Assembly: GCA_005239725.1 (NCBI GenBank) | Contig: SBBM01000051.1 | Location: 1-36,958, forward strand | From: Planctomycetales bacterium | Lineage (GTDB): Bacteria; Omnitrophota; Gorgyraeia; Gygaellales; Profunditerraquicolaceae | DNA: 36,958 nt | Direction: 5' to 3' | Shown: piece after piece, positions 3,125 through 7,533 of the stretch | Position numbering within the stretch: the first letter of the stretch is position 1 | Layout: the number at the start of each line of letters is the position of its first letter | Notes under the pieces: generated by a model | The model's input: only the letters and a program-made list of their open reading frames with translations | Told to the model about the DNA's origin: nothing | Database searches by the model: none | Translations under genes and position numbers: made by a program

Positions 3125-5305
3125 GTGAAAGAAAGAAGATTAAATGAAATTAAAGGTGTCATATTAATTGCGCTAGGGTTAATTATTCTGGCCAGTCTTG
3201 TTTCGTTTACTCCCTACGACCTTAAATTTTATACCTCGCACCCGAATATCCCCCCTAAGAATTTTATCCGCATTTTCGGCGCATACCTGGCGTATATAGT
3301 CTTATTCCTATTAGGTTGGCCGGGATATTTTATACCTTTTTTTACTATCTGGTGCGGGGTAGGTTTCTTTCGCCAGAAGCCTCCTTATTTAAATTTGGTC
3401 AGAACCCTGGAAATTGCAGGGCTCTTATTGTCGGCGAGCTCTTTGATAGGGATGTTGCCTTTTGGGAATGAAACCGTCGGCTTTAACCGCGCGGGGTTCT
3501 TCGGGTTTATTATATCCCGCAAGACTTCTTCTTATATCGGGCCTTTAGGCGGTTATATCCTTTTTATTACCCTGTTTTTAGCGTTTTTTGCCCTGGTTGC
3601 CGAGGTTTTGATATCTACCTTTATTTCAAATATCATAGAAAAAATAAAACTTGTCCTGAAACCCCTGTCTAAATTTCAATTCAAAAAACGGAAGAAGGAC
3701 ACCGCAGAGGTCAGGCCTAAAGACATTTCTTCAAAACCAAAAATAACTGTATCGGATTCTTCTCCGAAAGAAAAATCATCGAGGGGCATTCTGTCTCTGT
3801 CTTCAAAGCCCAAAATAAAGATAAATACGGAACCGCGGCCTGTTGCTGGACCCACGGCAAAAGCGCCGATATTAAAAACCGGAGATTATCATTTGCCCAC
3901 CCTGGACTTATTGGATTCGCCTCCGCCTCCCGAAGCCCGCCAGATTAAAGAGGACCTTACCAATAACGCGCATATTTTGGAGGATACGCTTGGCGATTTC
4001 GGCATTTCAGTCAAGATTACTGATATTGAGCGCGGGCCGATAATCACCCGTTATGAACTTGAACCGGCGCCGGGAGTAAAGATTAACCGTATCGTTACTT
4101 TAAGCGATAATATTGCCCTGGCCATGAAGGCGCAGTCAGTAAGGATAGTAGCACCCATCCCGGGCAAGGGCAAGGTAGGCGTAGAAGTGCCTAATACGCA
4201 GAGCAGCCTGGTTTATTTAAAAGAGGTGCTTGCAGGCAAAGAATTCCAGGAAATGGATTCAAAATTAACCCTTGCGTTAGGCAAAGATATCGCTGGCAAG
4301 GCTGTGATTGCGGATTTAGGAATCATGCCGCATCTTTTAATCGCCGGGACAACAGGCTCAGGAAAGACCGTCTGCGTCAACTCACTGATATTATCTTTAC
4401 TTTTTAAGGCTACGCCCAACGAATTAAAATTCCTGATGATTGACCCGAAGATGGTGGAGCTGGCGCCTTTTAACGGTCTGCCGCACCTTTTATGCCCGGT
4501 GGTTACCGATTCCAAGAAGGCATCCTGCGCCCTTAACTGGGTAGTGGATGAAATGGAGCAGCGCTATCAATTGCTGGCAAAGGCCGGGGCAAGGAATATT
4601 GAGGCTTATAATCAAAAGCAAGAGATGCTTCCTTACATCGTGGTTATGATTGACGAATTTGCGGATTTAATGGTGGTTAGCCGCGACCAAGTCGAAGGTG
4701 CGATTACTCGCCTGGCGCAGCTTTCTCGCGCCGTAGGCATACACCTGGTTCTGGCAACTCAGAGGCCTTCGGTAGATGTAATCACGGGCGTAATCAAGGC
4801 TAACCTGCCTGCGCGCATATCTTTTAAGGTCGCCTCCAAAGTAGATTCGCGTACTGTTTTGGATATGAACGGCGCCGACAAACTTCTGGGCAGGGGGGAC
4901 ATGCTCTTCTTAAGGCCGCAGGATTCAAAACTAACCCGCGCGCAAGGGTGCCTGGTTTCCGATAGTGAGATTGAGAGAATAGTAGGATTTATCAAGGCCC
5001 AGGCAGAGCCGGTTTACGATGAAGAAATATTAAAGGAACAGAAAAAGTCTTCTTTGCCCGGGGGCACGGAAAAAGACGAACTCTATGATGAGGCTGTTAA
5101 GGTTATCATAGAAAGTAACCAGGCATCGGTATCGATTTTGCAGAGGCGTATGCGCTTAGGCTACACCCGCGCCGCGCGCATTATTGATATGATGGAGCAG
5201 GAGGGGCTTGTCGGGCCTTTTGAAGGAAGCAAGCCGCGTAAGATTTTGATTGACCGGCAGGCGTGGCTTGAAAAAGACATAATGAACGCAGGGGGAGGGA
5301 AATAA
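3125..5305 (+). CDS. ftsK: FtsK/SpoIIIE-type DNA translocase
   Basis: A 726-residue septal DNA pump that clears and sorts chromosome termini during division. The N-terminus holds about four membrane segments (roughly residues 9-29, 53-80, 92-112 and 138-170), then a Lys/Pro/Ser-rich linker to about 250, then the alpha/beta motor with Walker A GTTGSGKT (408-415) and Walker B VVMIDEFAD with Asp510-Glu511. The C-terminal gamma winged helix (about 655-722, RRMRLGYTRAARIIDMMEQEG) recognises polar sequences such as KOPS in relatives. The GTG start at 3125 sits 6 nt after pnp and lacks a clear Shine-Dalgarno, suggesting coupling; the stop shares one base with the rodZ ATG. Partner recombinase XerD is encoded at 19232-20119. 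Confidence 0.96.
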   Translation: MKERRLNEIKGVILIALGLIILASLVSFTPYDLKFYTSHPNIPPKNFIRIFGAYLAYIVLFLLGWPGYFIPFFTIWCGVGFFRQKPPYLNLVRTLEIAGLLLSASSLIGMLPFGNETVGFNRAGFFGFIISRKTSSYIGPLGGYILFITLFLAFFALVAEVLISTFISNIIEKIKLVLKPLSKFQFKKRKKDTAEVRPKDISSKPKITVSDSSPKEKSSRGILSLSSKPKIKINTEPRPVAGPTAKAPILKTGDYHLPTLDLLDSPPPPEARQIKEDLTNNAHILEDTLGDFGISVKITDIERGPIITRYELEPAPGVKINRIVTLSDNIALAMKAQSVRIVAPIPGKGKVGVEVPNTQSSLVYLKEVLAGKEFQEMDSKLTLALGKDIAGKAVIADLGIMPHLLIAGTTGSGKTVCVNSLILSLLFKATPNELKFLMIDPKMVELAPFNGLPHLLCPVVTDSKKASCALNWVVDEMEQRYQLLAKAGARNIEAYNQKQEMLPYIVVMIDEFADLMVVSRDQVEGAITRLAQLSRAVGIHLVLATQRPSVDVITGVIKANLPARISFKVASKVDSRTVLDMNGADKLLGRGDMLFLRPQDSKLTRAQGCLVSDSEIERIVGFIKAQAEPVYDEEILKEQKKSSLPGGTEKDELYDEAVKVIIESNQASVSILQRRMRLGYTRAARIIDMMEQEGLVGPFEGSKPRKILIDRQAWLEKDIMNAGGGK

Positions 5306-6129
5306 TGGAAGCGGAATCAAGTGGCGCAAAGCTTAAAAAGCTCCGCTTAGAAAAAGGCTTCAGCCTTGAAGAGGCGCAGAAAAAAACCAAAATCCATCTT
5401 GATGTCCTGAAGGCCATAGAAGAAGACAATTTTATAAATTTAAGCCCGGTATATGCCAAAGGTTTTTTAAAAATTTATTGCAAATTCCTGGGTGTGGATT
5501 ATAAGTCTTATATCCCTGATTATAAGGAGCTGCAGGCACAGCCGGGCGCACAGATTAAGCAAGAAGAGCCGCCGCAATTCATTAAAAATACTCCGGAAAA
5601 ACGGGATGTCTCCAGGCCAAAAGTAAAGTTAAAGACGATTGTTGTAATATTGTCAGGAATATTTCTTGCGGTTAGCCTGTTTAATCTCGGCAGAAAAATG
5701 GCGCGTGTCCCCAAGAAGGAGGAAAATAAACCGAAAGTAACCAGGGCCAAGCAGCCGGCTCTGGAAAAGGCAAAGCCAAAACCAGATGCAAAGCTCAATG
5801 TAAAGCCAGATACAGCCCTTGTTGAGAAAAAGGTGCGCACAGAAACTATCTTCCAGGAAAAGAATCTTGTTGAGATAAGGCTGGTCATAAGCGCAAAAGA
5901 GGACTGTTGGATGCAGGTAAAGGTGGACCGCCATCTGGTTTTTCAGAATATTTTAAAAAAGGGAAGGTTCGAAAGCTGGAAGGCAAAAGATAAAATAGAA
6001 CTTTCTTTAGGCAACGCCGGCGGAATAGATTTAGAGATAAACGGCAAACTCATCTCTCCCCTGGGCCGAAGAGGACAGGTGCTCAAAAACATCGTAATCA
6101 CCAAAAACGGCTTAAACATACCGCAGTAA
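5305..6129 (+). CDS. rodZ: RodZ-like helix-turn-helix membrane protein
   Basis: A 274-residue protein with the RodZ layout. A cytoplasmic Xre-type helix-turn-helix (about 8-75: LKKLRLEKGFSLEEAQKKT ... YAKGFLKIYCKFLGVD) normally binds MreB. Then comes a Lys/Pro-rich linker, one transmembrane helix at about 112-128 (IVVILSGIFLAVSLFNLG), a second Lys/Pro-rich spacer, and a C-terminal periplasmic beta domain (DUF4115-like, about 185-270, with KEDCWMQVKVD and LEINGKLISPLG). RodZ links the MreB cytoskeleton to the elongasome and cell shape. It overlaps ftsK by one base (TAATG). No mreB is in the window. The stop codon lies inside the first unit of a repeat element. Confidence 0.88.
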   Translation: MEAESSGAKLKKLRLEKGFSLEEAQKKTKIHLDVLKAIEEDNFINLSPVYAKGFLKIYCKFLGVDYKSYIPDYKELQAQPGAQIKQEEPPQFIKNTPEKRDVSRPKVKLKTIVVILSGIFLAVSLFNLGRKMARVPKKEENKPKVTRAKQPALEKAKPKPDAKLNVKPDTALVEKKVRTETIFQEKNLVEIRLVISAKEDCWMQVKVDRHLVFQNILKKGRFESWKAKDKIELSLGNAGGIDLEINGKLISPLGRRGQVLKNIVITKNGLNIPQ

Positions 6130-6294
6130 TCAGGGGACGTAATCAGGGGACGTTTCCCTTATCTGTAACTCTTTGCAATGCATAACGATAGAAAGAGGTA
6201 GGTTGGATTTGTCGGTTAGATATTATAAATTGCCAGTTTGTAACTTATTATTTCCCATGCCGTTATGAACAAGGGAAACGTCCCCTACGTCCCC
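6127..6294. repeat. inverted-repeat element overlapping the rodZ stop and the rimO start
   Basis: A 13-bp unit TAATCAGGGGACG occurs twice in tandem (6127-6139 and 6140-6152). The second copy runs into GGGGACGTTTCCCTT (6146-6160), whose exact reverse complement AAGGGAAACGTCCCC lies at 6271-6285, followed by a second inverted CGTCCCC unit ending at 6294. About 110 bp of AT-rich sequence separates the arms. The left arm includes the rodZ stop and the right arm is translated as rimO codons 3-10. No transposase is present, so a non-autonomous palindromic repeat (REP/MITE-like) is the best description. Boundaries are approximate. The AT-rich core holds only a weak promoter-like TTGGAT/TATAAA pair. 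Confidence 0.75.
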
Positions 6295-7533
6295 TATAAA
6301 ATTGGGATATTGAATTTGGGCTGCCCCAGGAACCTGGTGGATTCGGAGAATATTTTAGGTCGCCTTAACCTGAAAGGCTACCCTATTACCGATGTTGCCA
6401 AGGCTGATATCGCTATTGTTAATACTTGTGCATTTATAGAAGACGCTAAAAGAGAGTCAATTGACGCGATATTGAGTCTGATTGATTTGAAAAAAAATGG
6501 CAAACTGAAAAAGATAATCGTTTATGGCTGTCTGGTTCAACGTTACAAGGATAAATTAAGGCGAGAACTTCCGGAAATAGATGCCTTTGTGGGTAGGGTT
6601 TCGCTTAATCATTCGCAGGAGGCATACCAGATAACCCCCAGGCATTTTGCATATGTAAAGATATGCGAAGGCTGCATAAATAACTGCTCATATTGTATTA
6701 TCCCGAAGATAAAATCGAAATTTGCCAGCCTCGGTATGAACAGCATACTTGAAAGAGTAGATAAGTTGGACCGCGAAAAAGTTTCGGAGATAAATATTGT
6801 CGGGCAGGATATAACCGGTTACGGCATCGACCTGTATGGCGTGCCGAAACTCGCCGAGGTTTTAGGCAAAATATCCGCCAGGGTAAAGAATACAGGCTGG
6901 ATAAGGCTCCTTTATTTATATCCTAGCCGTATCAGCGATGACTTGCTAAGGCTCATCAAAGACGAGCCGCGCATATGTAAATATATTGACGTGCCTATCC
7001 AGCATATCAACGACCGCATATTAAAATTGATGCGCCGGGATACCAAAAAGAAAGATATCCTGAAATTGATAGAAAAAATCAGGAAAAACATCCCGGGGGT
7101 GGCTTTGCGGACCTCCCTGATCGTGGGTTTTCCTTCTGAGACGGAAAGGGAATTTAACGAATTGCTTAAATTTATTGACGATGCCAGATTCGAAAGGCTG
7201 GGCGCTTTTGTGTATTCCAGAGAAGAAGGGACAAAGGCATATGGTTTTGAGGGGCAGGTTCCCAAAAAAGTTAAGATAGGGCGTTTTAACGCGGTCATGG
7301 AAAAACAGAAGCTTATTTCGGAAAATTTAAATAAAAAATTTCTTGGCAAGCAGATTGATGTTATAATAGATAATATTGAGGACAGCCGTTATTTAGGCCG
7401 CAGCCAATATGACGCCCCGGAAGTTGACGGCATAGTCTATGTGAGTTCAAAGAAAGAATTGAAACCCGGTGATTTTGTAAAGGTAAAAGTTACGACTACC
7501 CTGGAATACGATTTAGCAGGAGAAGCCGTATAA
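6265..7533 (+). CDS. rimO: ribosomal protein S12 methylthiotransferase RimO
   Basis: A 422-residue radical SAM enzyme that adds a methylthio group to a conserved aspartate of ribosomal protein S12, using two iron-sulfur clusters. The N-terminal UPF0004 domain starts with IGILNLGCPRNLVDSE and has its conserved cysteines (GCPRN, NTCAF, YGCLVQ). The radical SAM motif is Cys137-Cys141-Cys144 in CEGCINNCSYC. The C-terminal TRAM-like domain contains GRSQYDAPEVDGIVYV, diagnostic of RimO rather than MiaB. The first 12 residues (MNKGNVPYVPYK) have no counterpart in typical RimO and are encoded by the inverted-repeat element; no Shine-Dalgarno precedes the ATG. The stop overlaps the pgsA ATG by one base. 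Confidence 0.95.
   Translation: MNKGNVPYVPYKIGILNLGCPRNLVDSENILGRLNLKGYPITDVAKADIAIVNTCAFIEDAKRESIDAILSLIDLKKNGKLKKIIVYGCLVQRYKDKLRRELPEIDAFVGRVSLNHSQEAYQITPRHFAYVKICEGCINNCSYCIIPKIKSKFASLGMNSILERVDKLDREKVSEINIVGQDITGYGIDLYGVPKLAEVLGKISARVKNTGWIRLLYLYPSRISDDLLRLIKDEPRICKYIDVPIQHINDRILKLMRRDTKKKDILKLIEKIRKNIPGVALRTSLIVGFPSETEREFNELLKFIDDARFERLGAFVYSREEGTKAYGFEGQVPKKVKIGRFNAVMEKQKLISENLNKKFLGKQIDVIIDNIEDSRYLGRSQYDAPEVDGIVYVSSKKELKPGDFVKVKVTTTLEYDLAGEAV

Follow-up and report, generated by a model that had tools for sequence, protein, structure and literature searches.

The junction between rodZ and rimO in the window analyzed here (the whole stretch of DNA, 36,958 bases in length, from an uncultured bacterium) is occupied by a REPIN-like, RAYT-associated miniature element, a member of a dispersed repeat family with the invariant ends GGGGACGTTTCCCTT. 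In most relatives the rodZ stop and the rimO start overlap at this position; no ATG is present at the native place of the rimO start in the source genome, and its RimO frame is intact. We think it likely that the element, which was probably moved by a RAYT, inserted at the rodZ stop/rimO start and destroyed the native ATG, that RimO is now translated, most probably, from an ATG in the right arm of the element, and that the hairpin formed by the arms probably lowers this translation.

The family member spans window positions 6133-6294 (its parts are listed in Table 1). A preliminary description of this DNA had reported a palindromic repeat element at 6127-6300 and had read the right arm as N-terminal residues of RimO, and both observations are upheld: inverted arms of 25 nt each, 84% complementary and spaced by 92 nt, lie at 6145-6169 and 6262-6286, and MNKGNVPYVP is read from 6265-6294. 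On the left side there is also a 13-nt direct repeat (6126-6151). An Rfam search returned a chance miRNA match alone, far below the cut-off.

Table 1. Features of the rodZ-rimO junction, in window positions
Feature	Position	Strand	Remarks
rodZ	5305..6129	+	Pfam HTH_25 and RodZ_C; stop TAA 6127-6129 in native position; C-terminus ...GLNIPQ*, that of relatives ...GLSIPR*
Left boundary tandem duplication	6126..6153	+	13-bp unit GTAATCAGGGGAC x2.15, consisting of flank TAATCA and element end GGGGACG
Miniature element	6146..6285	.	140 bp without duplicated parts; two inverted REP-like arms and a spacer between them; 13 paired copies in genome
Left invariant end GGGGACGTTTCCCTT	6146..6160	+
Left subterminal stem-loop-like region	6166..6190	+	Weakly conserved among copies; weak in the rimO copy
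Right subterminal stem-loop-like region	6241..6265	-
Putative rimO start codon	6265..6267	+	Within right arm; no other ATG/GTG/TTG in the open frame ahead of residue 12; Shine-Dalgarno motif absent upstream
rimO	6265..7533	+	TIGR01125; UPF0004, Radical_SAM and TRAM_2; codons 1-10 element-derived
Right invariant end (AAGGGAAACGTCCCC on + strand)	6271..6285	-	In-frame reading is RimO KGNVP
Right boundary tandem duplication	6278..6296	+	9-bp unit ACGTCCCCT x2.11; in frame, three extra RimO residues

The 13-mer end GGGGACGTTTCCC has 44 exact copies in the 1.46-Mb genome, 22 on each strand, and its reversed control has none; this recurrence, together with the fact that perfect tandem duplications (unit 8-45 bp) number just two across the 36,958 bases of the window, one at each end of the rimO element, places the element far beyond chance. 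These copies, which the preliminary description had suggested looking for, fall at 26 places, 13 of which have two exact inverted arms with an outer length of about 140-175 bp. When up to three mismatches were allowed, 41 perfect 15-mers and four with one mismatch were recovered, and the others were near control level. Sequence identity between copies is 99% over the first 15 bases and just 54% over the following 30; pairing of the subterminal stem varies with position, from 11 to 38 of the 39 ends, and a small subterminal hairpin is a moderately supported prediction. At six places an open frame stops at a TAG whose G is the first base of the element. We ruled out a 2-bp target duplication, as the choice of TA or CA on one flank is independent of that on the other (27 and 7 of 39 ends).

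The exact 13-mer is carried by 15 of the 108 genomes of the same taxonomic family. We also note a second, short form of about 53 bp in which one GGGGACGTTTCCC end faces a GGGGACGGTTCT- or GGGAACGCTTCT-like end (L005, L006, L009, L010, L018, L019, and L038). Five relatives (G115, G124, G114, G106, and G022; L125-L142) have the same ends, with many copies in which only about 3-25 nt separate the arms to give short hairpins, and long paired elements with these ends occur at three loci (L082-L084) in Clostridium/Clostridia MAGs, apparently distant from the source lineage.

The genome also encodes a REP-associated tyrosine transposase of the kind that the preliminary description had proposed to seek. 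The C54 gene (L039:2041-2616) specifies a 191-aa Y1/HUH protein that is RAYT/TnpA_REP-like; it matches Pfam Y1_Tnp above the cut-off, NF047646 with 70.8 bits (below the cut-off of 80), and PDB 4er8 with E=4.8e-5. The gene is flanked on both sides by the family's ends, GGGGACGTTTCCCTT at L039:1892 and, on the right, an end that differs by one mismatch, and the relative G018 has a RAYT 66% identical to the C54 protein that bears the same kind of ends. We infer the link between this RAYT and the dispersed copies, and the mobility of the latter, from these shared ends; the rimO element would thus probably be a REPIN-like unit (two REP-like arms ending in GGGGACGTTTCCCTT) mobilized by the RAYT/TnpA_REP-type transposase of C54. 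RAYTs have been reported to cleave DNA in vitro, and rare excision reads have been described (PMC8266576, PMC3116915). The literature searched contained no paper that mentions both the Omnitroph lineage, to which this genome may belong judging from its genes, and a tyrosine transposase.

Comparison with known systems is informative in placing the family. REPINs, which have invariant ends and a looser interior (PMC3116915), are associated with RAYTs (Bertels and Rainey 2011, PMC3116915), and the source element resembles them in its two inverted repeats, whose invariant end measures about 16 nt, in an interior that varies and can form a hairpin, in intergenic dispersal and in a RAYT gene in the genome: its copies are dispersed, near-invariant at their ends and often in inverted pairs, and the RAYT (HUH-Y1) gene is flanked by the same repeats. 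It differs from them in that the GTAG/GTGG tag beside the hairpin is absent, the ends being GGGGACGTTTCCCTT, and in its arms of about 48 nt and its boundary tandem duplications. Di Nocera et al. (PMC3733652) described RAYT-like genes that lie between inverted repeats of the motif GGGGWSAS, and the TIRtrons/TIRYTs of TnpA_REP subclass 2.1 (Di Nocera et al. 2013, PMC3733652; PMC6006769) are similarly RAYT-like genes between long inverted repeats that start with GGGG, with dispersed dimers. Of the source sequence GGGGACGT, the first six bases (GGGGAC) fit the subclass consensus GGGGWSAS but the last two (GT) do not. The subclass 2.1 transposase has a C-terminal HTH domain; none was seen in the 191-aa C54 protein, on which the NCBIfam match covers only the core, residues 20-140. 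The features of the CGTC-tagged REP superfamily, an unpaired CGTC tag beside an 8-9 bp stem and no transposase association, were not found in the source element, in which CGTC is part of the 15-nt end and whose family is RAYT-associated. Formally, then, the element is no GTAG REP, and is closest to REPINs and TIRtrons.

REPs have been described at both ends of genes and, in frame, inside them (Di Nocera et al., PMC3733652), and the Rickettsia palindromic elements and further intragenic REPs treated in that paper are likewise palindromic repeats in frame inside genes or at gene starts. Unlike these, the source copy also holds the sole start codon ahead of a conserved core, the native start having been lost. 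The kind of event is thus already known, and rimO is a clear, recurrent new example of it.

Among 26 relatives, 20 show an overlap of the rimO start codon with the rodZ stop (ATGA, GTGA, or TAATG), and alignment of the rimO starts, another suggestion of the preliminary description, indicates that relatives have their own start at the junction, where this element is absent. The homology of most relatives' RimO begins at residue 10-13 of the source RimO, and the element's end at 6294 coincides with this onset (residue 11 is codon 6295-6297). L045, whose RimO is closest in identity (70%) among the relatives, has CGC TAA TGG at the junction, and the source has CAG TAA TCA followed by the element. 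The rodZ stop is therefore native, contrary to the earlier claim that the repeat supplies it, and the rimO ATG has probably been cut by the insertion, whose target would have been an overlapping junction, ancestrally something like TAATG. It is extremely improbable that the arrangement is an assembly artefact in which two pieces of the genome were joined through a repeat: several element copies do lie at contig ends (C7, C16, C44, and C57), but the order rodZ-rimO-pgsA is that of the relatives, and the spacer of the rimO copy is unlike that of other copies, leaving just short repeats in the junction.

Three other relatives (G023, G020, and G040; L049, L053, and L071) have a rodZ-rimO gap of 132-159 nt that holds other, unrelated palindromic inserts, after which rimO retains its own ATG. 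This junction appears to have received insertions more than once.

The ATG at 6265, in the right arm, is the only one ahead of the conserved RimO core, and in relatives an ATG or GTG is retained upstream of the conserved KIGIL strand. Translation would now begin at this codon, adding ten element-encoded residues to RimO. The idea that the repeat had become the 5' end of rimO thus stands as far as the start codon goes; the ribosome-binding site also expected of it is not seen, as no Shine-Dalgarno motif lies upstream of 6265 (many other genes in the window also have none) and the AUG is paired in a predicted hairpin. In a read-through transcript from rodZ this AUG has a predicted pairing probability near 1, within a fold of -72.5 kcal/mol (z -5.1); in a transcript starting within the spacer it is predicted to be freer. 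We looked for a promoter-like site within the element and found none. Because the AUG would be paired in the read-through transcript and the spacer offers no promoter-like site, the two-arm mRNA hairpin probably lowers rimO translation and uncouples rimO from rodZ.

The missing Shine-Dalgarno motif and the strong hairpin at 6265 could be read as a sign that the element is simply an untranslated intergenic insertion and that rimO starts at a weak downstream codon, a TTG at residue 16 or 18, especially as many N-terminal REPs may be untranslated (Di Nocera et al., PMC3733652). We regard this as quite unlikely, since initiation at TTG would remove the conserved KIGIL strand that relatives keep downstream of their start, and the right arm and 9-bp duplication maintain an open frame. 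Unlikely too, if a little less so, is that rimO is effectively silenced, with its start and native overlap gone, the new AUG sequestered by the hairpin and the frame persisting only because the insertion is recent. The predicted structure and the missing promoter-like site would fit such silencing, and rimO, which the preliminary description took for an essential-type gene, is dispensable in E. coli; but RimO has suffered no frameshift, stop or loss of identity, its frame is preserved by the right 9-bp duplication, and two other genes share the arrangement with their frames intact. As judged from its mean identity to relatives, one of the highest values in a comparison of 29, RimO is not decaying. 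We favor use of the right-arm ATG.

The two other genes are a CCA-adding/poly(A) polymerase gene (C4, L001:44-1528; MSNKEGKRP..., MSNKEGKRPLFF...), whose only upstream ATG lies in an element copy, and a ProA-like gene (C57, L041:2-559; assigned from a reading of the sequence and a weak Pfam aldehyde-dehydrogenase match below the cut-off), whose sole upstream ATG likewise lies in a copy. For both genes, relatives carry a start codon at the matching position, and the family has likely given replacement starts to these genes too. Two further candidates were set aside. An MBL-fold gene (C47, L038:631-1401) has an in-frame copy of the shorter, ~53-bp form near its N-terminus, but after its native ATG, which is retained at L038:631, so that the copy is an in-frame insertion; a ThiH-like radical SAM gene (C37, L035:620) is ambiguous, since an ATG of its own is present and is preceded by AAAGGGG. 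With three start-codon cases and one in-frame case, the 1.46-Mb genome suggests that members of this element family become part of genes recurrently.

The tandem duplications are not peculiar to the rimO copy. In 437 kb of the genome, a non-random sample drawn mostly from element-bearing contigs within which boundaries and other places were compared, there are 19 perfect tandem duplications (unit 9-45 bp), eight of them at the 31 arm boundaries and 11 elsewhere; the boundaries make up about 0.2% of the 437 kb, so that duplications there are far above background. Those at boundaries are 9-35 bp long, and in each of them a few bases of flanking DNA are joined to the element's beginning. In a limited search of the literature on RAYT elements we did not find such boundary duplications described. 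We tentatively suggest, with considerable doubt, that RAYT movement or processing may leave a scar, a tandem duplication joining a few target bases to the element's first 7-30 bases; with a preference for insertion beside YA (TA, or CA as it occurs in CAT, the backward reading of ATG), such scars would turn the family into a repeated source of start codons and N-terminal residues. The boundary duplications could show in what way RAYTs cleave and rejoin DNA in cells, and rimO, with a native start in relatives that was apparently removed by insertion and an open frame that survives, is a clean test case for repeats becoming parts of genes.
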